Shown here piece by piece: positions 1,039 to 56,855 of a DNA stretch of 64,000 nt. Each line of letters starts with the position of its first letter. The first letter of the stretch is position 1. The stretch covers positions 39,386,679 through 39,450,678 of the forward strand of contig CM055822.1 of NCBI GenBank assembly GCA_029582265.1, in the 5' to 3' direction. The position numbers were made by a program, and so were the translations under genes. The stretch comes from Zoroaster sp. YZ-2022. Lineage: Eukaryota; Echinodermata; Asteroidea; Forcipulatida; Zoroasteridae. Below the pieces are notes generated by a model that searched no databases, was not told the DNA's origin, and saw only the letters and a list, made by a program, of their open reading frames with translations.

Positions 1039-1097
1039 TAACCTATCAAGTAACCTATCAAGTAACCTATCAAGTAACCTATCAAGTAACCTATCAA
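1039..1097. repeat. 12-bp minisatellite, left block
   Basis: About five head-to-tail copies of the 12-mer TAACCTATCAAG. The same repeat resumes at 1289 after a 190-bp L2 tail, so the two blocks were once one array. It lies in the intergenic space downstream of the packaging ATPase gene. Confidence 0.9.
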
Positions 1098-1288: not shown

Positions 1289-1400
1289 TAACCTATCAAG
1301 TAACCTATCAAGTAACCTATCAAGTAACCTATCAAGTAATCTATCCAAGTAACCTACAGCGACCTATCAAGTAACCTACTGCGACCTATCCAAGTAACCA
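1289..1400. repeat. 12-bp minisatellite, right block
   Basis: Continues the TAACCTATCAAG array after the L2 tail. Four near-perfect copies come first, then degenerate copies (TCTATCCAAG, CTACAGCGACC) that merge into the 3' end of the ATPase frame. The C-terminal residues of that frame are partly encoded by the repeat. Confidence 0.85.
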
Positions 1401-2040
1401 ATTACGACCTGGTCAGATCCGTCTAGTATTTCGTAATCGGTCGGTTGATCCGTTTTTAAAATCAACTTGCAATGTTTAGCTCTTTTTAATTCTCGATTAA
1501 TATCCATTCTCAATTCTTGGTTCGGTATGACGTAATTTTCTCGAAGACAATTTTCGAACGAGTCTCTATCCTTACAATAAAATATACTCAGCCACTTTAG
1601 TTGCTCTCTAAAATCTTTCAACACGCTATTATATTTTTGCGAAATAATCCAACAGCTGTGTTTGGCGTGCCTGCCGCTAAAGGCCAACTGACTGATCATA
1701 CATTTATTATTTTCATCGTATTTTCTATGTTTTAACGCTTTGGTCGCGGAGCAGTCGTCGATGATAAACAGCGTCTCATCTCCTTTAAAAGCGTCGTGGT
1801 AAATTTTTATGACTTTTGTTTAGCGATAAATCGCTCAAATCGTTGATGTACACTCGCTCATCGTTCCAAATCCATTTTCTGTTTTGATAAGCGAGATTTT
1901 ATTCGACGGTCGGGCATAGTATAACGATATATTCAAAATATTTACGATATTCTTTTTCCAAAAGATTTAAAGCAAATTCTGTTTTTCCACATCCGGTTTG
2001 TCCGCAGATTAATGCGGCGTGCGGATATCTAGGTAACATG
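1378..2040 (-). pseudogene. Polinton genome-packaging ATPase (FtsK/HerA, A32-like), frameshifted
   Basis: The start is the ATG complementary to 2038-2040. Within 15 residues comes a Walker A motif, GQTGCGKT, and further on a Walker B strand, ETLFIIDDCSA, decoded from about 1745-1790. A sensor-like region, FSGRHAKHSCWIISQKY, follows near 1640-1690. This order is typical of the packaging ATPases of Polintons, adintoviruses and poxvirus A32 relatives, which drive DNA into the capsid. About 220 residues matches the family size. The frame changes at least twice between 1800 and 1960, leaving an intact C-terminal 107 residues. The C-terminus runs into the 12-bp minisatellite. The major capsid gene lies directly upstream on the same strand. 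Confidence 0.85.
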
Positions 2041-2066
2041 TTTAATACTATTCAACATGATTTTTT

Positions 2067-3490: not shown

Positions 3491-3549
3491 GTACTATTAT
3501 TTTATTAAAATTTAAAAAAAGTTTATCTAATAAAATTGTTTTTATAGCG

Positions 3550-3955
3550 ATGATGATCGGAGGCGCGATAGTAAACGCCCTCGCCTTTACAGGATCAAAT
3601 GCTTTATTTTCCAGTTTACGTTCCGGCGATGCCGAAAAAGAACGAGAGAGGCACGATTTAGCGGAAAGCGAGAGACGAATGGTCTAAAAAGCGATCGAAA
3701 TATCTAAATTACATGAACGATCGACTAAAAAAAGAATCGAACGCTAAAAAAACTTTTACCGATATAAACGAAGCGATGAATGAATATTATATCGTTACCG
3801 GCAGTCAATTCGAGTTACCGGAAAATTTATACGACGAGCCTAAATTAGATGATTTTTACGTTCCTAGCGAAGATCAAAAAACCAGAGAAGTATTGTTTAT
3901 CGTCTTGGGCATGACGGCAGTAGGCTACTTTAGCTATAAATTATTAGAGCTATAA
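3550..3955 (+). pseudogene. Small Polinton membrane protein with two hydrophobic ends, frameshifted
   Basis: The start is one of the paired ATGs at 3550/3553, giving MIGGAIVNALAFTGSNALF, a hydrophobic N-terminal segment. An Arg/Glu-rich helical region follows, and near 3670 the frame shifts by one. The second part (3713-3955) contains FTDINEAMNEYY, a Pro/Asp-rich linker, and a C-terminal membrane segment (EVLFIVLGMTAVGYFSYKLL). The two parts belong to one protein of about 135 residues that I know as a recurrent uncharacterised protein of animal Polintons. It is divergent from the major capsid gene, and the next plus-strand gene starts 25 bp downstream, as in a compact viral operon. Function unknown; a minor membrane-associated virion component is an inference. 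Confidence 0.6.
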
Positions 3956-3980
3956 AAATAAAAACTAATTGTAAATAAGT

Positions 3981-5370
3981 ATGGCGGAAGGAGGAGTTGA
4001 GATAGATGACTTTGATCCACCGATAGAACAAGAGGATCAACAAGATGATCGACTAGATGATCAATCCGTACGGGAAATATTAGAAAGAGAAGAAATAGAA
4101 AGAGAAGAAGATAAAATAGAAGAGTGGACGAACAACATTCCTAACATAAATATATTGGCGCAACAAACTAACTTCATGACTGAAAATTTTCGAGAACTTT
4201 ATGTAGAAAACTATAATCCCGACAATATGCTCAATACTCAATATTTTCATTTTGAGCAGGAAGATATTCCTGAGGAAAAAATAGTAAGAGGTTTTTATTA
4301 CAAAGATGTACTTTTAACGCGTGTAGGCAACGTGAGTGAATTTGTCATCAAAAATATAATAGAACAAAGAGCGAGAGAGAAAGGACATAAAGGAACTGAA
4401 TTTCTTAATGAAGCATTAGGTATAAAAAGTAGCGAAGAAAGAAAAAAAATATCAAAAAAGACTCGTTTTGCGTTAGAACCAAACGTTATTATTCTCAATC
4501 AAACAAACGTTGAAAGCACTCCGATGCAAGATTTACCGCAAGTTGCGACAACTGCAAGTGAAAGCACCCAAGAAGCAGTTTCTATTCTTCAAAAAGAAGA
4601 ACTGAAGCGGGTGGGCTTCCATTGCGAGAACTCTTGGGTCTCGATAAAGCCTTGCAAACGACTCGAGGTCAACTCGTAAATAATTTAGCCAAATTGGACG
4701 CACTCGACAAAGAAATCTCTGATCTTCAAAAAGAATACGTAAGCGCTCGAGATTGAGACGATGAAGATGAAAAAGAAACCGCAGAGCTCCGTAAAAAGCT
4801 GCAACATAAACAAGAAAAAAGACGACTTAGATTAGAGGCCGCGAGTGCGCAAGATCACGTTCTTCGTAGTCAAATCAATAGAATCAAAGAAACGTTTCAT
4901 AAAATAATGAGAGACGGTACGTTAGGTGAAAAAATTGAAACTATATTCAGAGAACAAGGCATAACGTTAGTCAATATATTAACGGCGGTTAGTCTCGCGA
5001 TCGCTGCCTTCGTTGAAGTGATCGTAGGTGGGGTAAAATCGGTTTTACCTACACCTAAACCCGTACCACCTACACCCGTACCACCTACACCCGTACCACC
5101 TACGCCCGTACCACCTACGCCCGTACCACCTACGCCGAGTGGCGGAGGTGTAAAAGACTGGATACAAAAAACTCTCACAAATCTATCGAATCTGCTAAAG
5201 AAACTCGGATTAAAAAAGCCTTGGATTCTCTACCGGGTATCATCGGAGGAGTATTGAGTTGGTTATTAACGACAATTTCAAAAGTGGTAGGATGGGCGGC
5301 GGAACATGTGTGGCTAGCCTTGACCGGAGTCGGAGTTTTAGTTTTATCTTATCTACAGAGTCAACGCTGA
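3981..5370 (+). pseudogene. Large Polinton coiled-coil/membrane protein, frameshifted
   Basis: Starts at ATG 3981 with an acidic N-terminus (DDFDPP, EEIEREED). The frame is open to about 4610, shifts, and resumes with LRELLGLDKALQTTRGQLV and a long Lys/Glu coiled coil. One in-frame stop occurs near 4757. Next come LRSQINRIKETF and REQGITLVNILTAVSLAIA, a hydrophobic helix, a proline-rich linker of PVPPT repeats (5060-5134), and after another shift near 5215 a C-terminal LPGIIGGVLSWLLTTISKV amphipathic/membrane region ending at 5370. The architecture (coiled coil, QGIT-hydrophobic, Pro linker, GIIG-SWLL tail) is one I know from uncharacterised metazoan Polinton proteins. It might act in membrane interaction or as a fibre, but that is inference. 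Its stop overlaps the stop of the convergent minus-strand gene. Confidence 0.6.
5060..5134 (+). repeat. 15-bp in-frame repeat encoding PVPPT units
   Basis: Five copies of a 15-bp unit (CCCGTACCACCTACR) encode consecutive Pro-Val-Pro-Pro-Thr pentapeptides in the linker of the coiled-coil/membrane protein. The unit length keeps the frame, and copy number is likely to vary between copies of the element. Confidence 0.9.
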
Positions 5371-6750
5371 AACAACTCGTAAATAATTACGCCTATCCCA
5401 AAAGAAACCGCGAGACCAACGATCAGAGACTTTTTTCCTGTTGGTGAGTATCGACTGTCAAGAGTTGAGTATCGATAGATGGTGGCGTGTCTGGTTGAGT
5501 ATCGATGGACGGAGGTGGTTGAGAATCAATGGATGGTGGCGGAGGTGGTTGAGAATCGATGGATGGTGGTGACGGAGGGGGAACGGCTGTTGAATTTGTG
5601 TCTTGGTTCGAACCTAACGATAAATCAGGCGTTGCGATTAAAATATTGTTGTTGTATCCAACGTACGTACCTATTCGTAAATCATGTCGGATGGCAAAAG
5701 GTATAAACCTTCTTCCATAACAAAGTTTAACTGCGATCGAGCGTATTGTAAAGAATCTTGGTACCTCTGAAAAGAAGATTGCAAATCTACCGGAGAATCG
5801 ATCGAAGCATCTAGAATGTTTAAGATTCTCTTTTTGCATCTAAACCGGTACCCGGTACGAGAATTCCACTTTTAGCTTGAGCTTGAGCTCCCAATAACGC
5901 GTAAACGTACGTTCTTATAGAGTCGTTGATTCGTTCTATACCACTATCCGTAAAGCCTTGAACTAATTCCTGTGCAAAAGTCGGAACTTTAGCTTGGCTC
6001 GAACCGAGTATAAATTTAATCCAAGCTTGTTGGGTATCGGGAGATTGTGAAATGTAAGCGACTGTATACGTCGAAGGATAATCATCAAAATCCATCTTTT
6101 TAGCGACTTTGAAAAGATTATAATCACGCGCGTTATGGTACACAACGGGCACATTCGAATTATCGTAGTCTTTTCCAGGTACCGGAATGTAACCGTTGCC
6201 GTAATCGTAATAATAGGCTGTTCCCAATCCTCTCGAGTTTTTGTCTACTTGTTGTTTCCAATCGGATACCGGCGAGACGTGAAATTCTCTACATATTTTA
6301 TTATATGCACCAATGTCTATAATTATTGTTTTCAAACGCGCTCCAAAATTTTTGAAAACATGCGGCGGGACAGCTCATTTCTTTGAGCAATCGTCTAATT
6401 TGATAATAGACGTGAAATTTAAAGAAACTACTAATCATCGGATTCGAATGGAACAAATGTTCGTAATTCACTCCGCACCCAGTCGTACTACACCACGTTA
6501 CAAAATTTATTTGATTTTGATAAAACTTTAGCGGATTAGAATTCCAATCATTTACAATATCGTCGCTATCGACGTGAGGCAACTTGTACTTGTTAAAAGG
6601 ATTAGCGAGCGTTACATTAAAAAAATCATTTTCATTAATGTAAATATTTACGTTAGTCAAGTCGCTGGAAGAAATTGTTCCAGCTACAAAATTGCCAGAT
6701 TGTGGATACCGTTTTGATAAATTACTCCGAAATGCTAAAGGAAGCGCCAT
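5361..6750 (-). pseudogene. Conserved large Polinton protein with C-terminal membrane anchor, frameshifted
   Basis: The start is the ATG complementary to 6748-6750 (MALPLAFRSNLSKRYPQSG). The first block (to about 6301) contains FVAGTISSSDLTNVNIYIN and DSDDIVNDWNSNPLKFYQ. The frame then shifts, and the second block (6335-5820) contains TDSGIERINDSIRTYVYALL and GAQAQAKSG. A third block continues through a Ser/Pro-rich linker of SIDSQPPP-type repeats to a hydrophobic C-terminus (SLIVGLAVSFGIGVIIYELF) whose stop lies at 5361-5363. The whole is about 455 residues. I recognise it as a recurrent Polinton protein without an assigned function. A capsid-associated or spike-like role is only inferred from its place among capsid genes and the anchor. 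At least two frameshifts break it. Confidence 0.6.
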
Positions 6751-6777
6751 TTTATTATAAACTTATATTATAATAAA

Positions 6778-7462
6778 ATGCATCATACGATCGAAATTTA
6801 ACAATTTAGCAAGCCGGTCGTATTAGATCATAGTATCGATAATCGCGATGGTAAACTCACGATTTCGCTAAAGGCTATCAACTTTTGGGTCGGTTACTAT
6901 AATGTGCGCAAAAAATAAAAAAATATGGCGTCGTATAATTAATGACAGAGGACAGCCGATGGAAGAAGTTCAGTTTGTCCATCCCGGACTTTATAATATA
7001 ACAGAAATTATCGAAATTGTCGTAAATAACACACCTTGGCTTACATTCGCCGTCGATGAAAAATCCGGCGAATCTTTGCTAAATAGTATTCAACAAAACC
7101 AAAAAATCAAATTTTCGTCTGGGCTAGCTAATTTACTCGGGTTTCCTGATCTATTTCTATCTATGGGTGAGCATCGTGGAAAAATTGATTTGCAACCTTT
7201 TAAAATAATGTACGTTCATTGCGATCAAATTTGTATGAGCGAAAATTTTTACAACGGTAAACAGTCGAGTATTTTAAACGTTTTTCCCTTACAAGATAAA
7301 TCATTGGGCGAAAGCGCCTGGATAGAATATTCTAATCCATTACGAAAAAATCTCAAAACCGGTACTTTTAACGAATTGAGTTTTAAAATTAAAGATTATA
7401 TCGGCAGAGACATTAATAATCACGGTATGCCGGCCATTTTAACCATCGAAATTAATAAATAG
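6778..7462 (+). pseudogene. Polinton minor-capsid candidate (single jelly-roll/penton-like), N-terminus broken
   Basis: The ATG at 6778 opens a seven-codon frame that stops at once. Coding resumes in another frame with LDHSIDNRDGKLTISLKAIN and GYYNV, then shifts again at about 6910 into an intact stretch to 7462. That stretch is beta-rich (VHPGLYNITEIIEIVVNN, KIKFSSGLANLLGFP, FKIMYVHCDQICMSENF) and ends in NNHGMPAILTIEINK. Total length near 220 residues and the mainly beta character fit the penton-type minor capsid protein reported for Polintons. The assignment is by family pattern, not structure. The next gene starts 11 bp after its stop. The internal ATG at 6902 is unlikely to be the true start because homologous-looking sequence precedes it. 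Confidence 0.55.
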
Positions 7463-7673: not shown

Positions 7674-8099
7674 TGTTCCGGACCATAATGTCCGCAAGTA
7701 CCATTATGTCCGCGAACCGATTTGGGCCCATTACGTCCGACCTATTACGTCCGCGGAACCATTGCGTCCGACCCATTACGTCCGCGGAACCATTGCGTCC
7801 GACCCATTACGTCCGCGGAACCATGACGTCCGACCCATTTCGTCCGCGGAACCATTCCGTCCGACCCATTGCGTCCGCGGAACCATTACGTCCGACCCAT
7901 TGCGTCCGCGGAACCATTGCGTCCGACCCATTACGTCCGCGGAACCATTGCGTCCGACCCATTGCGTCCGCGGAACCATTACGTCCGACCCATTGCGTCC
8001 GCGGAACCATTACGTCCGACCATTGCGTCCGCGGAACCATTACGTCCGACCATTACGTCCGCGGAACCATTACGTCCGACCCATTACGTCCGCGGGCGC
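7674..8099 (+). repeat. Left terminal inverted repeat made of 31-bp subrepeats
   Basis: After a unique outer 60 bp the TIR consists of about 11 tandem units of roughly 31 bp, alternating CGTCCGACCCATT(A/G) and CGTCCGCGGAACCATT(A/G). It is the inverted partner of 14466-14956. Open frames across it encode only RPTHYVRGT-type repeats and are artefacts of the repeat. The CpG-rich units could be transposase binding sites (inference). Confidence 0.9.
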
Positions 8100-14465: not shown

Positions 14466-14956
14466 TGGGCCCGCGGACGCAATGGGCCGGACATAATGGG
14501 CCCGCGGACGTAATGAGTCGGACGTAATGGACCCGCGGACGTAATGGGTCGGACGTAATGGTTCCGCGGACGCAATGGGTCGACGTAATGGTTCCGCGGA
14601 CGCAATGGGTCGGACGTAATGGTTCCGCGGACAATGCCGGTCCGGACGCAATGGTTCCGCAGACGTAATGGGTCGGACGCAATGGTTCCGCGGACGCAAT
14701 GGGTCGGACGTAATGGTTCCGCGGACGCAATGGGTCGGACGTAATGGTTCCGCGGACGTAATGGGTCGGACGCAATGGTTCCGCGGACGTAATGGGTCGG
14801 ACGCAATGGTTCCGCGGACGTAATGGGTCGGACGCAATGGTTCCGCGGACGTAATGGGTCGGACGTAATGGTTCCGCGGACGTAATAGGTCGGACGTAAT
14901 GGGCCCAAATCGGTTCGCGGACATAATGGTACTTGCGGACATTATGGTCCGGAACA
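14466..14956 (-). repeat. Right terminal inverted repeat made of 31-bp subrepeats
   Basis: Inverted partner of 7674-8099, with about 12 units and the same unique outer segment ending GGTCCGGAACA. The arms differ in unit number (426 versus 491 bp), which fits repeat expansion or contraction after insertion. Confidence 0.9.
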
Positions 14957-17585: not shown

Positions 17586-17786
17586 TACCAATTAATTTAA
17601 TGTAGAACTTTCTTTTGCCGCAGTACCTCAGCTTTTAGAATGCGGAATTTGCTTCAAAACGGAATATAAAGAAGTCTTTGTACAAGCGACCTTTTTTGGC
17701 GCTTTAGACACGGGAATCTGTTTCGATATAAAAATTGGAAGTTTTTCATTGGGTTATAAATATAATCCATCATTATTATTAGAATA
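17586..17786 (+). pseudogene. 3' part of Polinton gene copy 2
   Basis: Resumes after the L2 insertion and matches copy 1 through ATTTGCTTCAA, FFGALDTGICFDIK and neighbouring codons. The normal stop after the GICFDIK segment is lost and the frame runs on to a TAA at 17784-17786, overlapping the start of the next gene (TAATGATG). Confidence 0.65.
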
Positions 17787-18389
17787 ATGATGGATGCGTT
17801 ACCAACCTTACCAGTCATGAACGTCGAGGGTAATGTAGCTTTGCCGCTAACGGTAGATGTGAATGCGTTTCGATTACAACAAATCAACGACATCAAGAAA
17901 GAAATTTCCGTGGAGCGCAGCGAGCGTGAGAGATCGTATAAAAAATACAATAAAATAGATTCAACCTTATCTATCGTAGAAACGATGGCAGAATGCGTAG
18001 GTGTCGCGGCTGGATCCATTGGAATAGCCAGTATAGCCAGCGTCGTAGCGGCGCCTGTCGGATTTGTCCTTGAAGGAATAGCCATCGGGTTAGGTGGTAT
18101 GGCGGTGGCGATAAAATACGCGAAATACAAGCTCGGTAAAAAAGCAAAGAAACATAACGAGATTAGAATTTTAGCCGACAGTAAACTCAACACCATCAAT
18201 AGTTACGTATCAAAAGCGATCGAAGATGGTCTTATAAGTCAAGAAGAATTTGTTTTAATCAGCAATGAACGAGCAAAATACTCGGAGATGAAAGAAAACA
18301 TTAGAAAGAGATTCGCTCCTAAAGACGCTCCGCCAGACGTCGAAAAAGACCTTGTAAAAAAACTTTTGAATTTACCGTCAAAGCCATAG
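17787..18389 (+). CDS. Polinton protein with Gly/Ala-rich hydrophobic core, intact
   Basis: Uninterrupted 200-codon frame from ATG 17787 (a second ATG at 17790 is equally possible) to a stop at 18387-18389. The N-terminus is neutral. Residues 30-55 are a charged helix (EISVERSERERSYKKYNK). Residues 66-110 form a long Gly/Ala/Val-rich hydrophobic stretch (GSIGIASIASVVAAPVGFVL, LGGMAVAI), followed by a basic segment (YKLGKKAKKH) and a helical, Lys-rich C-terminus. I know similar proteins from animal Polintons, without an assigned role; membrane insertion or pore formation is inference. It is the only Polinton gene here that is fully open, next to heavily broken neighbours. It overlaps the run-on stop of gene copy 2. 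Confidence 0.8.
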   Translation: MMDALPTLPVMNVEGNVALPLTVDVNAFRLQQINDIKKEISVERSERERSYKKYNKIDSTLSIVETMAECVGVAAGSIGIASIASVVAAPVGFVLEGIAIGLGGMAVAIKYAKYKLGKKAKKHNEIRILADSKLNTINSYVSKAIEDGLISQEEFVLISNERAKYSEMKENIRKRFAPKDAPPDVEKDLVKKLLNLPSKP

Positions 18390-21211: not shown

Positions 21212-21711
21212 NNNNNNNNNNNNNNNNNNNNNNNNNNNNNNNNNNNNNNNNNNNNNNNNNNNNNNNNNNNNNNNNNNNNNNNNNNNNNNNNNNNNNNNNN
21301 NNNNNNNNNNNNNNNNNNNNNNNNNNNNNNNNNNNNNNNNNNNNNNNNNNNNNNNNNNNNNNNNNNNNNNNNNNNNNNNNNNNNNNNNNNNNNNNNNNNN
21401 NNNNNNNNNNNNNNNNNNNNNNNNNNNNNNNNNNNNNNNNNNNNNNNNNNNNNNNNNNNNNNNNNNNNNNNNNNNNNNNNNNNNNNNNNNNNNNNNNNNN
21501 NNNNNNNNNNNNNNNNNNNNNNNNNNNNNNNNNNNNNNNNNNNNNNNNNNNNNNNNNNNNNNNNNNNNNNNNNNNNNNNNNNNNNNNNNNNNNNNNNNNN
21601 NNNNNNNNNNNNNNNNNNNNNNNNNNNNNNNNNNNNNNNNNNNNNNNNNNNNNNNNNNNNNNNNNNNNNNNNNNNNNNNNNNNNNNNNNNNNNNNNNNNN
21701 NNNNNNNNNNN
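21212..21711. other. Assembly gap, 500 N
   Basis: Exactly 500 undetermined bases, the conventional placeholder for a scaffold gap of unknown size. Frames reported across it are meaningless. Confidence 0.99.
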
Positions 21712-26559: not shown

Positions 26560-27215
26560 AGTGTTTGTGATAATACAAACACATGGGTGTTCGAGTTTGT
26601 CAGGGCAGTGATGACGACGTCAGAATGTTTTTAAAAAACTTAGCATCATTATTTGTTTTAATATTAAACTTTGACTTCGGTTTAGATAGTAAGTAAAGGT
26701 CAAATTGGGTCATGTTTTGTAAACATTTTGACAATTAACAATCTGTACAATAGTGGAAAGATTGGTTACTATTTGTGGTTGTTGAGATATGAATTTTAAA
26801 ATATTAAACTTTGACTTCCGGTTTGGACAGAGTAAGGTCAAGTGGGGTCACTTGTGTAATATTTTTCGACAATTAACAGTCTATACAATGGTACAAAAAT
26901 GTCAATTTACCTCTTGTGGTTGTTGAGATATGATTTTTAATATTAAAGTTGGACTTCCGGTTTGGACAGGAAGTAAGGTCAAATGGGGTCACCTTTGTGT
27001 AAATATTTTTGACAATTAACAATCTAATACAATTGTGCAAAAACTGTCAATTTACCTGTGTGGTTGTTGAGATATGATTTTTTAAAACTTTGACTTCCAG
27101 TTTGGACAGGAAGTGAGTCAAATGGGGTCACCTTTGTGTAAATATTTTTGACAATTAACAATCTGTACAATGTTGCAAAACTGTCAATTTACCTGTTGTG
27201 GTTGTTGAGATATGA
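26560..27215. repeat. Composite repeat, copy 3: about four internal units
   Basis: The head (ACACATGGGTGTTCGAGTTT, GACGACGTCAGAATG) is followed by units beginning near 26657, 26800, 26938 and 27077, a spacing of about 140 bp. Shared words are CTTCCGGTTTGGACAG, GACAATTAACAATCT and TGTGGTTGTTGAGATATGA. Numerous one- or two-base indels separate the units. Confidence 0.8.
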
Positions 27216-27550
27216 TTTTACATGCATACACATAATGAGCACGACCAGAGCTGATTTACATTCACCAACAGGGCGCACTTTTTAGCGTTGAAAAAGCCGT
27301 GTAGATCTTTCATTGCAACGTAATCAAAACGTTTTAACTAATAAAAAATGATTGATCGAAATTCGATATCTGATGACCTAATAATGACGTCCACCGTTAT
27401 GTTTCATCTACGTGTTATGTTCTAAGTATGTGCCAAGTTTCAAGTTCATATGAAGTTTAGAGTAGCCAGTATGTGGTGTTTTGTAGACAATCGATCCGGA
27501 AAGAAGGAAGAAGAAAAAAAAAAAGCCGAACAAAAACAATAGGTGCTCGC
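27216..27550. repeat. Composite repeat tail carrying an uninterrupted LTR target site
   Basis: Contains AATGAGCACGACCAGAGCTG, the sequence that at 28360/35387 is split by the LTR retrotransposon. It therefore represents the empty site in a paralogous repeat. It ends with the GTGTTATGTTCTAAGTATG, GAAGAAG and AGGTGCTCGCGCTG tail. Confidence 0.75.
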
Positions 27551-35386: not shown

Positions 35387-36398
35387 CACGACCAGAGCTG
35401 ATTTAGATTCACCAACAGAGGGCGCACTTTTTAGCGTTGAAACAGCCGTGTAGACTTTGATTTTCAACGTAATCGAAACGTTTTTAACATAAAATTCTTT
35501 ATCGTAATTCAATATCTGACCTAATGACGTCTGGGTAAATGTTTCATCTACGTGTATATTCTAAGTATATGCCAAGTTTCAAGTTCATATGAAGTTTGCA
35601 AGTATGTGTTTTTGTAGACAATCGATCCGGGAAAAAGAAGGAAGAGAAAAAAAACGAACAAAAACAATTTACTCGCTGTAGCTCGAACACCTAAAACGAA
35701 CAAAAACTAGATATAAGTTTTGTCACAACAAAAACTAGGTGTTCCGGGTTGAAGTTAAAATGGTTTACGTCATCAATTCAAGTGTTGGAGAAGTCAAATG
35801 TTAACGTCTGTTGAAGTTCTCGCAGTTTGTTGAATACAATACAATACTGTTTAGAAATTATTTTAATAATTAAACACTTTGACTTTTTGGACGAGAAAAA
35901 AGGTCAAATTAGGTCATGTTTTGTAAATACTTTTGACAATTAACTTTTAAATGGTGCAAAAACTGTGATTTACCTCTTGTGGTTGTTGAGATATGATTTT
36001 TTAAATATTAAACTTTGACTTCGGTTTGGACAGAAATGAAGGTCAAATGGGGTCATCTTTGTGTAAACATATTTCGATAATTAACAATCTATACAATGGC
36101 GCAAAAATGTCAATGTACCTCTTGTGGTTGTTGAGATAGGTTTTTTTAAATATTAACTTTGACTTCCGGTTTGGACAGGAAATAAGGTCAGAAGTGGGGA
36201 CCATCTTTTAGTAAAAAATTTTTTTGACAATTAACGATCTACAATTAAAATTGAATTTACCTCTTGTGGTTGTTCAGATATGATTTTTGAAATATTAAAC
36301 TTTGACTTCCGGTTTGGACAGGAAGTAAGGTCAAATTGGGGTCACCTTTGTGTAAATATGTTTCGACAATTAACAATCTATACAATGGTGCAAAAAAC
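35387..36398. repeat. Composite repeat tail and copy 5 (about four units)
   Basis: Resumes at CACGACCAGAGCTGATT after the LTR element, continues through the GAAGAAG tail to about 35700, then a new head (AGGTGTTCCGGG) and units beginning near 35870, 36004, 36147 and 36291. The last unit breaks off at AACCTCACAACG, where tRNA-like sequence starts. Confidence 0.75.
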
Positions 36399-39500: not shown

Positions 39501-40150
39501 TTTCACCATAAACTTCAATAGGGGAAAGAGTGTGCTTCCTTTTCTTAGACTGAGAGTCAGATCCTGAGGGTGGTGGAATATGGAGCAGAAGCTGTGGTAC
39601 TGGTGGTGGTGTACTGGCGCCTGGTATATCGGCTAGCATATCGCACAATAGATATATTTCACCTGCTTGATATATGTTGAGTTGTTGTTGTTAATGGCAC
39701 TTCTGGCAATCTATGTGCCAGTTGCTGTACGGATTGAACAGCGCATGCGCGCAGAGATGCGAATGATATGAGACTGCTTAAAATGTTCCTTCTCTATTTC
39801 ACTGGGAGCTAATAAACTAGAAGAAATCTTGATGGACCGGTACAAAACTAAGAAAAATAGATGATCTCAGTCAAAAGGTTGAAGAAGTATAAAAACTGAA
39901 AAGATATTAACCCAAATCCAAAAGTCAAACCCAGGTTACTATAGCACGATCTAGAAAAAAACGAGGGGTTGGGTGTTGGTGATCCTCCAGACATAGAGCG
40001 CCGCATGCAAGCCGGTCCGTTTCCCTTGCAGTTTAAGAGTCCGTGCTCCGCCAGGTATAATTTGCAGGGCCGCAACACTTCAGGTGATGATGAGGCAGCA
40101 TCCTGTCCAGCCAATCACCAAAAACACCCAGTCCTCTGAAAAAAATTGCC
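39501..40150. other. Non-coding or repeat-derived; nothing identified
   Basis: Contains an 88-codon minus-strand frame (40114-39848) starting MAGQDAASSSPEVLRPCK with a hydrophobic C-terminus, but no recognised domain. The rest is without signal. Confidence 0.3.
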
Positions 40151-40537
40151 TGTGTAGAGAAGAACTATATGTATGTTTTAATATTTTCCGAAACTCTCTT
40201 TAATAAATTTAAGTATATTTGCTATTTTTTTGTTTGATCCAAGTTATTCATGTATTGTCATTGTTATCAGGTATATTTAGGCCCCTTTGTAATTTATGTC
40301 TATTATTGGTATTTTTTTACACTTGGTAAACAGGTGATTTACATTATCACTTAAAGCGTTACACGTATTACACTTCATTAGGATGATGTCCTATTTTATG
40401 TTTAAAGTTGTTAAGTTTATTGTACATGTCCAGTCTAAGTCTATGGATGATAGTTTCCTGCCAAATGGAAGATTCAATTGTTCATGTGAAATGAAACAGA
40501 AAGGTTGGATCATTTGAAGTCCTAATTTAGAATTCCT

Positions 40538-40960
40538 TCATTCTGATTGCCATTGATCTTTAAAGATTATTTTTAAGCTCGTGTTTAATTTCTGTAGTAG
40601 TAAGTGGTAATTTAATGTCAATGTTTTATTTTTTGTAGCCTTTTTTGCGATTTGGTCCAGCTTTTCATTGCCTTTTATTCCGCAGTGACCAGGAATCCAT
40701 TCAAATATAACATTATTATTTTGATTTTTTAATACTGATGATAGTGGGTGAATATCACATATAATTTTATTATTAGGAAAAGGTTGAAATTGCCTGTATT
40801 GCACTAAGGCAATCAGAAAAATACTAAGTGTGAATAGGTTGGACTTCTTCAATCCATTCTACTGCTATTAAAATAGCAAACAGCTCAGCCGTGAAGATAG
40901 AAGCTTCATTGTTTAATCTAATGCTTTTAGAATAATTGAGTTGTGGCATATATCAACTGC
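40538..40960 (-). pseudogene. RNase H domain of the I-like element
   Basis: In order: IFTAELFAILIAVEWI (catalytic Glu), SDCLSAIQAI (Asp), and EWIPGHCGIKGNEKLDQIAK (His, Asn, Asp), matching type I RNase H. It is open from 40852 to the stop at 40538, with a frame change at about 40850. The domain ends ORF2. Confidence 0.8.
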
Positions 40961-41689
40961 ATCCAGTTGTATTGGTTTCAGGGTTAAATGAACCATCTGT
41001 GTAAATATGAGTGAGTTATTCAAAGTAGTGTGTATTATTTCTGTGGCAATTAGTCCTTTTCATTTTATCAGTTATATATTTAGTGCGATTGTATATTTCT
41101 GTGGAAATGTTTGGTTTTGCTATAATGCCAATAAGGAAAAAGGATTGTGCAGGGAAAAATATTTACTTGTTTTGATGCCTTGCTTTTAAAGGGTTATGAT
41201 GTAGATCATTATTCACTTCTCAAGCATAATATTCTTTCTGCCAACAGTCAAGTTGGAGGTAATTGTTTGGTGGGATAATTGCATATTTAATTTGATGCCA
41301 TAAAAATTACAAAAAGAAATTACGTCTTAATTGAAGAGGTGGATCACCACACTCTATTTGTAATTTATTGAGGAAACCGTTCCATAAGTGCTCCAGTACA
41401 AATGTTTAATGCTTGATACTGAATGCAGTCCAGTTTTTTTGTTTATGAGTGAGGCTGCAGAATTAAAAGCCTCCCATCCGTATTCTATAATAGGTTTGAT
41501 TAGGTTTTATATAGTTGATGAGGCGTGCTACAGTCTGCACCCAATCAGGTTTTCCACTTATGCATCTGAGAAGGTTGAGTCTATTTTTACATCTATTAAC
41601 TATATAATTGATGTGATCTTTCAATGGATTTTTTTTGTCAAAATTATTCCTAGAAATTTAAATGATGATGAAAGGTAATGTGTTAACAT

Positions 41690-42720
41690 TATTAATATTA
41701 AGTTTAGTAGTAAATTTCTTTTATTGAGTAAAAAAAGAACAGGAATTGTCTGAGACGTAGAAATTTTGAAACCCCATTTTCACACATTTATTAATATCAT
41801 TCAAATTTTGTTGTATTTTCCTCATAAGAAAGTTGGTGTTTCTATTAGATTTCCATATAGCTATATCATCTGCATATTGGGAGATATTTATTCCATAGGT
41901 GACTTCAACAAGGTCGTTAACTGCAATATTGAACGAGAATTGGACCGATGACACTCCCCTTGAGGGTATTTATTCCATTTTCAATATTGCATAAGTTTGA
42001 AAAGGTACTATTAATTTTAACTTGAATTTTTCTGTTCGAGAGAAAATTATGAATCCACTATTAATTCGGCCTACAAATTCCCATCGTCTGTAATTTGATA
42101 ATGATAGCTGTGAGCCACAACATCAAAAGCCTTTTTTCTAAATCTAGGAAAACAGCTAATGTACTTTCCTTATTGACAAAAGCTTTATTATTTTTACGAC
42201 CCTTGCAGGAAACCACATTGATGGTTACTCAATAATTTGTGTTCTCAAGGTGCCAGTTGAGTCTATTGTTAATCATACGCTCCATAATTTTGCAGAAAGT
42301 GGATGTAAGGCTATTGGTCTGTACGATTTGAGGTTCTTGGGGAGTTTTTCCCCGGCTTGATTATAGGAATAAGAATAGCTTCCTTCCATTTACTAGGGCA
42401 TTGTGAGTATACCAAATCATATTAAAGATAATTAATAATAATTCTTTAGCTTTCAAAGGGAATGTGTAATTATGTCATTACTAATACCATCTTTTCCAGG
42501 AGAGGTACATTTAGCAGTGTCTATAGCTTCTTCTATTTCTGAAATTTTGAAAGGTTCATTGATGACGCAGTCGTTATTATTAATGAGAAAACAGTTATCT
42601 TCAATTTGTTTTTGTTTTTCTAAAAGGTACGAGTATAATTTTATTACTGCTTATGTTAGCATAGTTATCTACTAGTAAATCAGGTTTTCTTGGTCTGTCA
42701 TTTTGTAAACTTTGTTTTTC
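41690..42720 (-). pseudogene. Reverse transcriptase of the I-like element, 3' of the 5S array
   Basis: Begins at the array junction with LKEKNKVYKMTDQENLIY, then PFKISEIEEAIDTAKCTSPG and KDGISNDII (RT domain 1), SYRPIALTSTFCKIMERMI in shifted frames, a LKG..GP motif, and the catalytic YADDIAIWKSN (41880-41850). Several stops interrupt it. Confidence 0.8.
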
Positions 42721-42752
42721 TCTTTAAACATAAAACAATGGCCATGATATTC

Positions 42753-42869
42753 GTCTGCAGCCACACTACGTTGAGATGATTCAGTTTCTCGTCCGATCAC
42801 CAGTTAAAGCAACGTCTGGCCCGGTTAGTACTTGGGTGGAAACCGCCTAGAATACCGGGTGCCGTAGAC
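42753..42869 (+). rRNA. 5S rRNA copy 1
   Basis: 117 bp, starts GTCTGCAG and ends CCGTAGAC followed by T4, the RNA polymerase III terminator. Positions 42771-42785 diverge from the other copies and box A carries an extra A. First unit after the TTTAA junction; probably a degenerate copy. Confidence 0.8.
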
Positions 42870-42930
42870 TTTTATTTTGGTTGAAGAGCAGGTATCAAGA
42901 GTTTAAACATAAAACAATGCCATGATATTC

Positions 42931-43040
42931 GTCTACGGCCACACTACGTTGAATACCGGTTTTCGTCCAATCATCGAAATTAAGCAACGTCGGGCAGTTA
43001 GTACTTGGATGGAACCCTGGGAATACCTGGTGCCGTAGAC
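42931..43040 (+). rRNA. 5S rRNA copy 2
   Basis: Only 110 bp: bases are missing at the start of box A and in box C (GGATGGAACCCTGGG). Likely non-functional as assembled, or an assembly error. Confidence 0.75.
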
Positions 43041-43101
43041 TTATATTGTGGTTGAAGAGCAGGTATCAGAGTTTAAACATAAAACAATGGCCATGATATT
43101 C

Positions 43102-43220
43102 GTCTACGGCCACACTACGTTGAATACACCGGTTCTCGTCCGATCACCGAAGTTAAAAGCAACGTCGGGCCGGGTTTAATTGGGGTGGGAGACCGCCTGG
43201 GAATACCGGGTGCCGTAGAC
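43102..43220 (+). rRNA. 5S rRNA copy 3
   Basis: 119 bp. The 5' half is intact; in front of box C the usual GTTAGTACTTGG is altered to GTTTAATTGGGG. Followed by T7. Confidence 0.8.
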
Positions 43221-43280
43221 TTTTTTTGGTTGAAGAGCAGGTATCAAGAGTTTAAACATAAAACAATGGCCGCAATGTTC

Positions 43281-43400
43281 GTCTGCGGCCACACTACGTT
43301 GAATACACCGGTTTTCGTCCGATCACCGAAGTTAAACAACGTCCGGACCCGGTCAGTGCCCGGATGGGAGACCGCCTATACCATACCTGTTGCCGTAGAC
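43281..43400 (+). rRNA. 5S rRNA copy 4
   Basis: 120 bp, the canonical length. Box A lacks one base (GTTAAACAACG) and the 3' stem reads CCTATACCATACC instead of CCTGGGAATACC. Confidence 0.8.
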
Positions 43401-43460
43401 TTATATTTTGGTTGAAGAAACATTATCAAGTTTAAACATAAAACAATGGCCATGATATTC

Positions 43461-43577
43461 GTCTACAGCCACACTACGTTGAATACACCGGTTCTCGTCC
43501 GATCACCGAAGTTAAGCGACGTCGGGCGGTCCAGTACTTGGATGGGGGGCCGCCTGGGAATACCGGGTACCGTAGAC
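43461..43577 (+). rRNA. 5S rRNA copy 5 (variant A)
   Basis: 117 bp. Carries the variant-A diagnostic bases AAGCGACGTCGG and GGGTACCGTAGAC. Always followed by a variant-B unit in this array. Confidence 0.85.
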
Positions 43578-43638
43578 TTTTATTTTGGTTGAAGAGCGGT
43601 ACCAATAGTTTAAACCTAAAACAATTGCCATGATGTTT

Positions 43639-43754
43639 GTGTACGGCCACACTACGTTGAATACGCCGGTTCTCGTCGATCGCGAAGTTAAGCAACGTCG
43701 GGTCCGTTCAGTACTTGGATGGGGAGACCGCCTGGGAATACCGGGTGCGTAGTG
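43639..43754 (+). rRNA. 5S rRNA copy 6 (variant B)
   Basis: 116 bp. Starts GTGTACGG, with the variant-B spacer AAACCTAAAACAATTG upstream. The 3' end (GTGCGTAGTG) lacks a base. Confidence 0.8.
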
Positions 43755-43810
43755 TTTATTTTGGTTGAAGCGGGTATCGAAGTTTAAACAAAACAATGGC
43801 CATGATATTC

Positions 43811-43925
43811 GTACGGCCCACACTACGTTTAATACACCGGTTCTCGTCCGATCACCGAAGTTAAGCAACGTCGGGCCAGTTGGTACTTGGATGGAGACCG
43901 CCTGGGAATACCGGGTGTCGTAGAC
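43811..43925 (+). rRNA. 5S rRNA copy 7
   Basis: 115 bp. Two bases of the 5' stem are missing (GTACGGCCC); box A, intermediate element and box C are otherwise good. Confidence 0.8.
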
Positions 43926-43989
43926 GTTTTATTTTAGTTGAAGAGCAGGTATCAAAGGGTTTAATCATAAAACAATGGCCATGATATTC

Positions 43990-44106
43990 GTCTGCAGCTA
44001 CAATACGTTAGAATACACCGGTTCTCGTCCGATAACCGGGTTAAACAACGCCGGGCGGTTAGTACTTGGATGGGAGATCCCCTGGGAATACCGGGTGCCG
44101 TAGAAC
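43990..44106 (+). rRNA. 5S rRNA copy 8
   Basis: 117 bp. Box A reads GGGTTAAACAACGCCGG and box C GGGAGATCCCCTGG, both with substitutions typical of a drifting copy. Confidence 0.75.
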
Positions 44107-44166
44107 TTTTTGTTTTGGTTGAAAAGGTATCAAGAGTTTAATCATAAAACAATGGCCATGATATTC

Positions 44167-44278
44167 GTCCTGGCCACAATGCGTTGAATACACGGTTCTC
44201 GTCCGATAACCCGAGGTTAAGCAACGCCGGGCGGTTAGTACTTGGATGGAGATCCTAGGAATACCGGGTGCCGTAGAC
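44167..44278 (+). rRNA. 5S rRNA copy 9
   Basis: 112 bp. The 5' stem starts GTCCTGGCC and box C is shortened (GGATGGAGATCCTAGG). Shares AACGCCGG with copy 8. Confidence 0.75.
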
Positions 44279-44340
44279 TTTTTATTTTGGTTGAAGAGCA
44301 GGTATCAAAGTTTAATCATAAAACAATGGCCATGATATTC

Positions 44341-44456
44341 GTCTACGGGCCACCTACGTTGAATACACCGGTTCTCGTCCGATCACCAGTTAAGCAACGT
44401 CGGGCCCGGTTAGTACCCGGGTGGGAGACCGCCTGGGAATACCAGGTGCCGTAGAC
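44341..44456 (+). rRNA. 5S rRNA copy 10
   Basis: 116 bp, close to consensus, with GGTGGGAGACCGCCTGGG in box C; one or two bases missing near box A (CACCAGTTAAGC). Confidence 0.85.
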
Positions 44457-44515
44457 TTTATTTTGGTTGAAGACGGGTATCAAGGTTTAAACATAAAACA
44501 ATGGCCATGATATTC

Positions 44516-44630
44516 GTCTACGGCCACACTGCGTTGAACACCGGTTTTCGTCCGATCACCGAAGTTAAGCGACGTCGGGCCGGTCAGTACTTGGATGGGG
44601 AGACCGCCTGGGAATACCGGGTACCGTAAT
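44516..44630 (+). rRNA. 5S rRNA copy 11 (variant A)
   Basis: 115 bp. AAGCGACGTCGG and GGGTACCGTA mark variant A. The last bases of the gene are lost (CCGTAATTT). Confidence 0.8.
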
Positions 44631-44690
44631 TTATTTTGGTCGAAGAGCAGGTACCAATAGTTTAAACCTAAAACAATTGCCATGATATTT

Positions 44691-44809
44691 GTGTACGGCC
44701 ACACTACGTTGAATACCCGGGTTCTCGTCCGATCACCGAAGTTAAACAACGTCGGGCCCGGTTAAGTACTTGGATGGAGACCGCCTGGGGAATACCGGGT
44801 GCAGTAGAC
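44691..44809 (+). rRNA. 5S rRNA copy 12 (variant B)
   Basis: 119 bp with GTGTACGG start and AAACCTAAAACAATTG spacer. Box A is GTTAAACAACGTCGGGC. Confidence 0.85.
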
Positions 44810-44870
44810 TTTACTTTGGTTGAAGAGCAGGTATCAATAGTTTAAACCTAAAACAATTGCTATGATATTC

Positions 44871-44987
44871 GTCTACGGCCACACTACGTTGAATACACCG
44901 GTTTTCGTCCGATCACCCGGTTAAGCAACGTCGGACCCGGTTAGGACTTGGATGGGAGACCGCCTGGGAATACCTGGTGCCGTAGAC
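44871..44987 (+). rRNA. 5S rRNA copy 13
   Basis: 117 bp. Mixed type: variant-B spacer upstream but GTCTACGG start, as if produced by exchange between the two variants. Confidence 0.85.
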
Positions 44988-45049
44988 TTATATTTTGGTT
45001 GAAGAGCAGGTATCAAGAGTTTAAACATAAAACAATGGCCACGATATTC

Positions 45050-45167
45050 GTCTACGGCCACACTACGTTGAATACACCGGTTCTCGTCCGATCACCGAAG
45101 TTAAGCGACGTCGGGCCCGGTCAGTACTTGGATGGGAGACCGCCTGGGAATACCGGGTACCGTATAC
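45050..45167 (+). rRNA. 5S rRNA copy 14 (variant A)
   Basis: 118 bp and close to full consensus: intact box A (GAAGTTAAGCGACGTCGG), intermediate element and box C (GGATGGGAGACCGCCTGG), ending GTACCGTATAC plus T4. One of the best candidates for a functional gene here. Confidence 0.9.
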
Positions 45168-45229
45168 TTTTATTTTGGTTGAAGAGCAGGTCCCAATAGT
45201 TTAAACCTAAAACAATTGCCATGATATTT

Positions 45230-45349
45230 GTGTACGGCCACACTACATTGAATACACCGGTTCTCGTCCGATCGCTGAGAGTTAAGCAACGTCGGGCCCG
45301 GTCAGTACTTGGATGGGAGACCGCCTGGGAATGCCCGGGTGCCGTAGAA
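45230..45349 (+). rRNA. 5S rRNA copy 15 (variant B)
   Basis: 120 bp. GTGTACGG start and intact box C; two extra bases before box A (GCTGAGAGTTAAGC). Last unit before the second TTTAA junction. Confidence 0.88.
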
Positions 45350-45384
45350 TTTTATTTTGGTTGAAAACGGGTATCAAGAGTTTA

Positions 45385-45660
45385 AGTATGGGTATATTGG
45401 GTCTAGAGTAAGTTTTATTGATACGTTAAATTTTGTCCGAGATTTTTTTGAAGGTCTGGGTGATTCAAAATATTACAGACATTTTTCAATTTTTCTTTTT
45501 GGCTGTTTTGATGCTCTCCGTGCTATGGCACTTGCCCGTTTATATGTAATAAAGATCATCAGGATGCCAGGTTTTTTCAGGTTTTCAGTGCTTTTTCCTG
45601 TTGGTAATAGCTTTTTTACAATCGTCATTCCACCATGATGTACTAGATTTGGTAGTTTTG
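45385..45660 (-). pseudogene. Endonuclease-RT linker of the I-like element, 5' of the 5S array
   Basis: The minus strand encodes, in two frames, SWWNDDCKKAITNRK, a basic KTYKKT segment and AIARRASKQPKRKIEK, the typical linker of I/Jockey elements. It ends with SRPNIPILK exactly at the TTTAA junction. The downstream RT half continues EKNKVYKMTDQ in the same frame if the array is removed. Confidence 0.75.
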
Positions 45661-45799
45661 TGGGAAGTTGTTTTAGGTATGGAGGAGTCTATAGCATTAG
45701 TTAGTTGATTAATATATGTAATCTTCTTCGCTATTATTGGATTTATTGGGTTCAGTAATATATTCGTTACAGGCAGTTTGGAATTTGTCCCAATTAGCT

Positions 45800-46510
45800 T
45801 TTTGATAGACCATTTAATGGGATAGGTTTAAAAGAAGTAAAGCTGTAACATTTCTGGTTGATTTCTATCAGGATAGGATGATGCTCACTGCCCCATGTGT
45901 CTTCTATTATGGACCAGTTACATTTGGCTGTTAGTTTTCTGGAGGCCAGAGTAATATCTATACATGAAGTGGTACCTTGATAAATATTAATTCTGAAGTG
46001 CCTTCACCATTATTGATACAAACTAAATTATGTTCATCTATTAAATGTTGTATGGTACGCCATTGTTGTCCGTGTTTTTGCTTCCCCATGAGGAGTTGTG
46101 ACTATTGAAGTCTCCACATATTATAGTATTTTTGTTAATGTGTTGTTCAATCTCCAGTAAGGTAATTGTCCTTAATATTTAGACAAGGATTATAAGCATT
46201 AATGATGTTAATTTTATTTTTATCAATATTATAAACTTCAGCTATTTGGAACTGAACACACTTGTCATTATCTATAATATAATTCAGGGAAATACCCTTT
46301 TTTGTGAGGATAGCACATCCTCCACCAGAGCTCTTTGAATCATTTCTATCATTTCTGTGTATATTATAACCAGGAATGTTGAATTTTTTCCACTCTTTCA
46401 GCCAGGTCTCTTGTATACATATAATATTTGTTTTTGTCCCAGTTGTTAACAGCATTTTTAAATTCATTACCATGTGCAATTATTGATTGTGCATTACATT
46501 TGTAATATAG
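45800..46510 (-). pseudogene. Apurinic-type endonuclease of the I-like element
   Basis: NAQSIIAHGNEFKNAV (about 46490), then NIICIQETWLKEW with the catalytic Glu, GGGCAILTKKGISLNY, IINAYNPCLN and, in a shifted frame near 46100, GDFNSHNSSWGS. This order is that of APE-like endonucleases that nick the target for priming. Open for 110 residues at 46479-46147. Confidence 0.8.
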
Positions 46511-46569
46511 TGGCCATTAGTAAAATAATGATCATCATTGCGTTGAGTTATTTTTCCCTTTTGTTTTCA

Positions 46570-47960
46570 TTAGATGCCTTATGATTTGATGAACTGGGTG
46601 CCCCAGTTTCCAGCATGCCATTTCTCTTTGTTTAGGTTTTGATTGTGGATCTCTTTCTTTGTGTATCTTGTTTCGTAGGTCTGTTTTGGTGATTGTGATG
46701 TATTACGTGACTTACTGATGTTTTGGTTTTCTCTGGTTTTTAACTTCAGTGCTATGGAGTATGTGTTCAGCCAGAGATTGAATTTCCGTTTCTCTCTTTC
46801 TGTATTTCTAGTACTTTCCCATAATTTGCAAAAGCTCAATGATTAATTATACTAATGACTGATTTATTAAGTATTGTGGGTTGGGTTTCGTTTGGCATCA
46901 ACCACTTCCTCTGTTTGGGTGGATGCCTCCCTTTCAACTGACAGCTGTGGGTTTATTTTGCGTAGGTTCTGGATTTTGTTGGGTTTGCATATTTATCCAT
47001 GCTGGTTTTGGTTTTGGGTTAGGTGTGTCCGTATATTTATCTGTTTGAATTGTGATGTTGGTTCGAACCGTCTTTGCTGCTTCCGCATATGAAATATTAT
47101 ATGTAACTCTGAATTCCTGGATTTTCTTTTCTTCCTTGTAGGAGTTACGCAACATAGGCAGAGGAGTGATTCCCACCACACCTGCTACACTTGACTTGCT
47201 CTTTTTGAGTGCACTCGTCGTATGTGTGAAAACCACTACATCGGACACACCTCGTCTTGCTTCGACAATTGTTTGCTGTATGGCCTAGTCGTTGACAGTT
47301 AAAACAACGTATTACTGGTGGAATGTACGGTTTTACTGTAAATGATTCATAACCCAGTTGAATGTGTGTAGGCATATGAGGGGTATTAAATGTGAGACAT
47401 ACCGATGAAGTATTCCCTGTTTGTCCGTTTCTTTTATACATGAATCTGCGCACATCTGTAACCCCAAATCTTTTACATTCCTTTTGTATTTCTTTATCTG
47501 GAATTTCAGATGGAATTCCTGAAATGACGTCTTTCCTTTGTGTTTCTGATTTAGCGTATTCAGTGACCACGGCCCATTGTCCTAATTGACTGATTCCTTT
47601 TAGTTTGTTTGCTTGAGCTGAAGTATAGCATCTGACACAAATACCTCCTTGGTTGGTTTAGAAACATTTTTATGTAATCTTGTCCCATTGAGTTAAGAGC
47701 TTTAGCTATTTTTATTGGATTGATTTGTGGAAGTTTTACATCTGGGGAGTTTAATATTACTATAGTAGGGTTTACTTGTGGTTCATATGTGCTAAGGTTT
47801 CTTCTTTTCTGTTGTCTTGCACCACTATCAGAGTCACTGGAGGAGCTACTTTTGTTTTGAAATGATTTTGTTCGCTTTCGAGAAATCTTTGTTGTATATT
47901 CTGTATCTTCTTCATCATCTTCTTCTTGTGCCTGGCTTTATATTAGCCTATTGAAAATGT
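46570..47960 (-). pseudogene. ORF1 (gag-like, three zinc knuckles) of the I-like element
   Basis: The acidic/Ser-rich N-terminus (EEDDEEDTEYTT) leads to SGIPSEIPDKEIQKECKRFG, an RRM-like region, then CCHC knuckles CFNCQRLGHTANNC, CVRCSGFHTYDEC and CSRCGGNHSS. In another frame follow KKIQEFRVTYNISYAEAAKT and a Pro/Gln-rich tail. Such ORF1 proteins bind the element RNA. The core block 47570-47145 is open for 141 residues. Confidence 0.8.
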
Positions 47961-48103
47961 AAAACAGAAAATTGACCTTAATGGGTTGTTTATGAGTAAT
48001 ATAATTTGAAAAGAAAGGTAGGTCTCACCTCTTCTTTTGCCTAAAAGAGAAACTATTTTAAACTGTTAGAAATACTAAGATGGCCGCTCGCAAAAAGCAC
48101 GTC

Positions 48104-48317
48104 TCATCTCATTCGCATCTCCGCCGCGAGTCCTTTTATGTTGAGAAGATCTTTGATGCTATTTAGGATCGGCACGCAGTCACTGTACCTTTTCATCCAG
48201 TAGAAGACAATATCGTTTATAAGTTCATTTGCTGTATGAATGGCACTTTCATAATATGCTGTGTTCAGCTGACTGGATTTTCCAACAGATAGCTGGGTGT
48301 AGGTGGCCAAATGCTTC
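48104..48317 (-). other. Candidate terminal exon of a host or transposon gene
   Basis: After TTGCAATAGCTCAG (48318-48331 on the complement) the minus strand encodes about 70 residues, all helical, with LATYTQLSVGKSSQLN, YYESAIHTANELINDIVFYW and LNSIKDLLNIKGLAAEM, ending at TGA (48104-48106). Trp/Tyr content and lack of low complexity suggest real protein. No family recognised. A foldback MITE lies 110 bp upstream. Confidence 0.35.
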
Positions 48318-56355: not shown

Positions 56356-56855
56356 NNNNNNNNNNNNNNNNNNNNNNNNNNNNNNNNNNNNNNNNNNNNN
56401 NNNNNNNNNNNNNNNNNNNNNNNNNNNNNNNNNNNNNNNNNNNNNNNNNNNNNNNNNNNNNNNNNNNNNNNNNNNNNNNNNNNNNNNNNNNNNNNNNNNN
56501 NNNNNNNNNNNNNNNNNNNNNNNNNNNNNNNNNNNNNNNNNNNNNNNNNNNNNNNNNNNNNNNNNNNNNNNNNNNNNNNNNNNNNNNNNNNNNNNNNNNN
56601 NNNNNNNNNNNNNNNNNNNNNNNNNNNNNNNNNNNNNNNNNNNNNNNNNNNNNNNNNNNNNNNNNNNNNNNNNNNNNNNNNNNNNNNNNNNNNNNNNNNN
56701 NNNNNNNNNNNNNNNNNNNNNNNNNNNNNNNNNNNNNNNNNNNNNNNNNNNNNNNNNNNNNNNNNNNNNNNNNNNNNNNNNNNNNNNNNNNNNNNNNNNN
56801 NNNNNNNNNNNNNNNNNNNNNNNNNNNNNNNNNNNNNNNNNNNNNNNNNNNNNNN
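56356..56855. other. Assembly gap, 500 N
   Basis: Exactly 500 undetermined bases, a scaffold-gap placeholder. It lies upstream of the host gene exons, so 5' exons of that gene could be hidden here. Confidence 0.99.

Follow-up and report, generated by a model that had tools for sequence, protein, structure and literature searches.

How 5S ribosomal DNA (rDNA) changes its position among chromosomes is an old question which, in the portions of the literature considered here, has been argued mainly from cytogenetics and array organisation. Circular 5S multimers have been reported in human cells, in a paper that also cites them for Drosophila, Xenopus and plants (Cohen et al. 2010, PMC3225859), and the spread of 5S units by replication and reintegration has been proposed in pike and Asteraceae (PMC5437419, PMC3095306). 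5S genes have also been described near transposable elements in cichlids and within the 45S spacers of notothenioids (PMC3503869, PMC10138776), and small RNA genes, 5S among them, are targets of Dada DNA transposons (PMC8869645). Here we describe a 5S array inside a long interspersed nuclear element (LINE) of the sea star Zoroaster sp. YZ-2022, joined at both ends at the word TTTAA, in a stretch of 64,000 nucleotides (the window; C7:39386679-39450678), and compare its joints with those of other 5S loci in the searched genome (1.0 Gb, 616 contigs).

The array resembles the extrachromosomal circles in being a whole-number multimer of the 5S unit; the circles occur as free molecules for which a role in repeat dynamics has been proposed, and they were seen on gels, whereas the array is an integrated block whose joints are read at base level and share a fixed opening word (PMC3225859). 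Reinsertion of 5S units elsewhere by circles is the idea shared with pike and Asteraceae, though there it is argued from array organisation and here from an empty site and joint sequences (PMC5437419, PMC3095306). Cichlids and notothenioids likewise have dispersed copies beside or inside other repeats, but in the parts of those papers considered here no TTAA rule or whole-unit joint is described, and the notothenioid authors found no trace of a mobile element (PMC3503869, PMC10138776). With Dada, too, mobile DNA meets 5S at a fixed position, but there it is the transposon that inserts into the gene, producing 6-7 bp duplications, whereas in Zoroaster the 5S units lie inside the repeat and the joint falls in the spacer (PMC8869645). 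In the titles and abstracts of the literature searched we noticed no TTAA joint of 5S arrays, and in the parts of the cited papers considered here we met no fixed opening point with a TTAA core.

The window holds 15 complete 5S genes on the plus strand (42753-45350; Rfam scores of 40-104 bits), which Tandem Repeats Finder resolves as a head-to-tail array with a period of 180 and 15.0 copies (Table 1). The array opens with TTTAAACAT and closes with GAGTTTAA; both ends lie at one spacer position and the number of units is whole, a count subject to local sequence noise. Each unit contains TTTAA once, in the spacer, and TTAA twice, and the spacer TTTAA lies inside GTTTAAAC, one of two 8-bp palindromes of the unit. 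The surrounding element encodes, in two copies examined (L028 and L043), an apurinic-type endonuclease (Exo_endo_phos, Exo_endo_phos_2) and a reverse transcriptase (RVT_1) in the second open reading frame (ORF2), to which L043 adds RNase_H (E 3.2e-14) in ORF2 and zf-CCHC (E 2.4e-4) in ORF1, a domain content by which we assign the host to the LINE I group as a predicted member.

The right flank of the array has 39 further matches in the genome, 29 of which were fetched and serve as the LINE copies for comparison. When the two flanks are joined (41223-42727 plus 45386-46900), they give an alignment that runs through the join in every one of the 29 fetched copies, each with a single TTTAA there; the window copy has TTTAA twice and keeps the element bases on either side. 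Searched separately, the flanks leave a 5-base space between their matches (for example C8:36476727/36476733), and the exact left flank with TTTAA followed by a non-G base occurs at two places, the window and a point change in L033. These copies bear out insertion at a single TTTAA whose empty site is clean. An earlier note on this DNA, made from the letters of the window, had described a whole-number 5S array within a retrotransposon frame, beginning and ending at the same spacer position, and had named alignment of other element copies across the junction as a check: the 15 units do occupy the linker of ORF2, the base-level joints at both ends bear out TTTAA as the shared position, and every fetched copy presents the empty site. 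Its further claim, that removal of the array restores a continuous frame, holds at the site itself, where the window translation reads RPNIPILK and KEKNKVYK at the joints and RPNIPILKEKNSVYITDQEK runs uninterrupted through the join in L028 and L043 (the two copies translated), but not for the frame as a whole, as the window ORF2 carries many further frameshifts outside the array site. In L043 (2430-7794), a well-kept copy, ORF2 is itself split into frames of 590 and 607 aa, 164 bases apart.

A random junction between the LINE and a 5S unit would show an overlap of at least 5 bases with P of about 0.005, and the 5-base overlap at the window joints is not chance. For the window, the most economical account is a single joining of a multimer made of whole units and opened at TTTAA, and we put the probability at roughly 0.55 that such a multimer, opened at the spacer TTTAA, was joined into one LINE copy at the TTTAA of the ORF2 linker. 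The donor would have been an excised 5S multimer of the lineage of the cluster on C3, probably circular though possibly linear, opened at the spacer word within the palindrome and joined to the LINE in a single event. TTAA may guide such joining either by offering a microhomology prone to breakage or by being cut by an enzyme, and later duplications would have rearranged the unit types within the array. Beyond the window, whole 5S units probably enter repeats recurrently, by TTAA-anchored joining.

Table 1 Features of the array and its host element in the window
Feature	Position	Strand	Basis
Array of 15 5S units of ~180 bp each, TTTAA at either end	42723..45385	+	Rfam, Tandem Repeats Finder
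Left TTTAA, common to LINE target and 5S spacer	42723..42727	.	Sequence, empty-site alignment
Right TTTAA, common to 5S spacer and LINE target	45381..45385	.	Sequence, empty-site alignment
Unit A14, best-preserved 5S gene in the array	45050..45168	+	Rfam, 104.1 bits
LINE copy hosting the array (CCHC in ORF1; endonuclease, reverse transcriptase and RNase H in ORF2), ~5.8 kb without the array	39681..48134	-	Alignment with 12 fetched copies, full-length or almost so
Upstream part of the interrupted LINE (ORF1 and start of ORF2)	45386..47937	-	Translation, copy alignment
Downstream part of the interrupted LINE (reverse transcriptase, RNase H, 3' end)	39681..42722	-	Translation, copy alignment
Noisy stretch around the array, probably unpolished	40081..47100	.	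Indels 1.8, 1.7, 2.9 (array), 1.9, 1.3% from left to right

Among the matches listed, the main 5S locus is on C3, for the most part at 54-56 Mb, with matches further off near 26 and 36 Mb. Within the window array, shared substitutions define unit types (A5, A11 and A14 differ by 5-6, A6, A12 and A15 by 10-14, A8 and A9 by 7), and because the units of a type share substitutions, some of the divergence is genuine. The ~110 C3 unit readings examined, which overlap in part, lack 22 of the 32 shared variants. All matches with at most one mismatch to the type A8C + C30T + C33G fall in the window array, and the only match with two mismatches, C3:54129679, carries C30T and C33G. This pattern fits an array that would have come from the C3 lineage and then undergone change and duplication within itself.

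Joints at the same word are found elsewhere. Among the matches listed in the first search, C4:52384058 was the sole place outside C3 and C7; it has three units, one of them without a gene, with TTTAA at both bounds, and the same joints occur at C4:52392114, C15:2177782 and C15:2217827, one C4 and one C15 copy being identical across 883 bases. The left repeat of these C4/C15 loci goes on as TTTAAACGATG at C9 and has 7 bases in common with the 5S unit (TTTAAAC), and the right repeat, which by eye appears to lie in a LINE endonuclease frame, is CTTAATACTACC at C1, with TTAA (4 bases) in common. C2:44419346, drawn from a sample taken blind to array edges, consists of exactly two units with TTTAA at both bounds and overlaps with its flanking repeats of 7-8 and 4. 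Its flanks recur as a pair at C9:32741, C15:28486, C9:32495 and C4:52326 with spacings of 354, 354, 533 and 173, against 354 at C2, as expected for two, two, three and one units; the sequence of the C4 unit was read completely, that of the C9 copies over their first 91-96 bases, and for the C15 copy the spacing was used. Three left-only copies of the C2 type go on as TTTAATAT, and four right-only stretches are AACTGGTTAAGG. As read from these joints, 5S units lie within a repeat that occurs at five loci on four contigs, joined at TTAA. The search for other 5S arrays bounded at TTTAA, another check named in the earlier note, was positive at these two edge-blind loci (C4/C15 and C2). We also considered the right flanks at C4/C15 and C2 as transposons starting at TTAA and rejected this: most right-flank matches began at TTAA, yet the repeat continues beyond it in the fetched copies (C1:80060; C14 and C2, four stretches); the boundary at TTAA is that of the 5S joint.

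The edge-blind sample comprised the first 100 of the 6657 exact genome-wide matches of GGTCAGTACTTGGATGGGH, a pattern of 18 gene bases plus one that admits the canonical next base and hence lists units. Its nine off-cluster loci (six on C1, two on C2 and one at C3:34.6 Mb; the C3 arrays near 26 and 36 Mb were set aside) were all inspected; at C1:87713864, C1:103437633 and C2:43457 no array edge fell within the stretch examined. We counted 13 edges, two at C4 (from the first search), two at C2, one at C1:75494, two at the lone gene C1:56982964 and six at three gene fragments. Spacer TTAA stands at four of the five readable edges of edge-blind spacer-bearing arrays (C4, C2 and C1:75494; window excluded), and at 4/13 edges when the lone gene and the fragments are included. 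By chance, depending on the target, 0.6-2.0% of overlaps of 4 or more bases would be at spacer TTAA, and the binomial chance at 2% is 8e-7 for 4/5 and 1e-4 for 4/13. This excess is suggestive and not final, because few loci are involved, the two ends of an array do not count as independent, and overlaps were available for the edges at TTAA. The three short gene fragments (C1:8364184, C1:83622329 and C3:34631986; L084, L086 and L090) have flanks that are nearly identical between L084 and L086, with a similar left flank in L090, and perhaps represent a 5S-derived dispersed repeat.

Searches with patterns taken from the edges gave a mixed yield. A right-edge pattern had 38 matches, of which 19, in 18 stretches, were inspected in addition to the C4 and C7 loci: true TTTAA edges occur at C4 (two), C15 (two), C6 (two), C7 (one) and C3:54792110, internal spacer variants account for 10 of 11 C3 stretches and for C2, and C11 is internal at the match. 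The TTTAA edges at C6:47.87 Mb and C3:54792110 were excluded from all counts, as the pattern demanded the word. Among 85 matches of a left-edge pattern, four new ones were inspected (C1, C5 and two on C3) and all are internal; C4 and C7 were also inspected. A third pattern had six matches, and the four inspected (two on C6, C3:54111452, which lies at an inversion within an array, and C3:54067149) gave no new TTTAA edge. At C3:54067149 (L066, read) and C3:54068593 (pattern match) the main cluster contains a spacer variant, TTTAATTAATTAAAC, that could be a TTAA footprint.

Several observations weigh against a single circle-like donor joined at TTTAA. The flanks at C4/C15 and at C2 are two different repeats, hence no simple insertion, and because 5S units join two different repeats there, a circle entering one site does not cover these loci as they stand. 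Some edges avoid the word: in the edge-blind sample the right edge at C1:75494 lies at unit position 59, and both edges of the lone gene C1:56982964 and all six edges of the three gene fragments miss TTTAA; among pattern-chosen loci, the left edge at C11 lies near unit position 141, that at C6:15748 falls at a poly-A three bases ahead of TTTAAAC, and the array at C3:54793 restarts inverted near unit position 48. The main caveat is the local sequence noise, which at 40-47 kb is abnormally high and resembles unpolished assembly.

PiggyBac-type transposons have TTAA at their joints. A transposase of this kind, cutting and joining specifically at TTAA, could release 5S units lying between two TTAA elements with TTAA ends, or could leave TTAA-(5S)n-TTAA from a composite whose flanking elements later excise precisely, and it would explain why TTAA is present in every joint of the three arrays (window, C4/C15 and C2), both ends of the window array included. 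At C6:47.87 Mb the TTTAA that closes a 5S array is followed by CCCTTTCAATCCC, and at C6:47873230 and C6:47877693 (L055 and L056) it is followed by CCCTTTCAATCCCATTGTGCC; this C6 end resembles that of a piggyBac element, with transposase-like frames behind it by eye, though profile and structure searches gave no confirmation, six pieces of the C6 element having neither a profile nor a structure match. The 5S block shares TTAA with piggyBac-type transposons but has no obvious inverted ends (among its first 16 bases, 4 or 7 are alike), and the gene TTAA at unit position 82 was never met as an edge among the edges examined, so that we regard this route as unlikely for the window. A broader proposal is a TTAA-specific pathway of 5S rDNA dispersal in this genome. 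An enzyme that cuts TTAA, either a transposase of the piggyBac type or one derived from it, would open 5S arrays at their one spacer TTTAA and join multimers of whole units into TTAA breaks elsewhere, some of them in repeats, which could later take the 5S genes to other chromosomes. This proposal is likewise held only tentatively and seems doubtful at present. Replication template switching, in which a fork would leave the LINE at TTTAA, copy whole 5S units and return at TTTAA, covers the two-repeat joints at C4/C15 (overlaps of 7 and 4) and C2 (7-8 and 4) and fits them better than it fits the window, where the fork would have to come back to precisely the base at which it departed; switches at random would, moreover, draw on other short homologies, and for the window we consider this quite improbable. 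Identical 5-bp words flanking the 5S block are also what a generic integrase with a 5-bp target duplication would leave, TTTAA being an accident. In such a case the word should be unrelated to the insert; here it is the internal spacer word, a match expected by chance once in 1024, and it recurs at other joints with two different flanking repeats, which makes a generic duplication extremely improbable. The earlier note's interpretation, integration of a circular 5S multimer at a 5-bp microhomology or insertion with a 5-bp target duplication, is partly supported: the empty-site insertion and the other TTTAA-bounded arrays speak for it, and a generic target duplication is not supported, given this coincidence of words.

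An assembly artefact, with a chimaeric read or a faulty gap fill placing the array in the LINE, would account for the noise. In a comparison with eight of the 12 long LINE copies fetched (L040, L042, L044 and L048 were excluded for partial or split window alignment), 234 substitutions and 66 indels of 1-2 bases are private to the window copy, as against 9-82 and 1-17 in the others, and 172 of the 234 substitutions have another private event no more than 3 bases away (fraction 0.02-0.49 in the eight copies). The indel rate of the window copy, followed from left to right, is 1.0, 1.8 and 1.7%, rises to 2.9% over the array (77 events across 2663 bases, the peak of the noise) and then falls to 1.9, 1.3 and 0.4%; the eight copies stay at 0-0.7% per bin apart from the leftmost one, which shows up to 3.1%. 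The assembly also contains other noisy near-duplicates. Two neighbours at C6:47.87 Mb are near-identical, with 1.5 substitutions and 2.6 gap openings per 100 bases between them, as are two at C15:2.2 Mb, with 0.8 and 1.4. 5S genes score 85-96 bits in one member of the C6 pair and 60-70 bits in the other (one end-truncated gene excluded), full 5S genes of a C3 array scoring 99-112 bits. In each pair (C6:47873230/47877693 and C15:2177782/2217827) one neighbour is noisy and the other clean, and they are perhaps assembly duplicates. We infer that the window patch and the noisy C6 and C15 neighbours are unpolished sequence. An assembly chimaera is nevertheless unlikely because the element resumes at the exact base, with a 5-bp overlap; the noise is found on both sides of either junction, and the cleaner C4 and C2 arrays show the same word. 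We judge the artefact very unlikely. The noise does make the unit number and unit sequences doubtful, and with them the divergence and age of the array. Dating the insertion by unit divergence was dropped because mutation and sequence error are inseparable in the window copy, given indels of 1.3-2.9% and clustered private substitutions.

What this genome adds to the question of 5S movement is a set of base-level joints, comprising a clean empty site, whole units, one opening word and 5S within a repeat at five loci. With such joints, the circle, TTAA-enzyme and template-switch models become separable by counting joints in long-read genomes.

Elsewhere in the window, a cluster of open frames on both strands occupies 417-7462, two of which were searched and had no Pfam match, and a 207-aa open frame at 17766-18389 has only sub-threshold Pfam matches. 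Exactly 500 N stand at each of 21212-21711 and 56356-56855, as fixed-size scaffold gaps. Two arrays of a 31-bp repeat (7728-8095 and 14471-14905) have reverse-complementary consensus units and form an inverted pair ~6.4 kb apart, and two further arrays, at 26656-27219 and 35886-36396, consist of a related tandem repeat of 139-145 bp.

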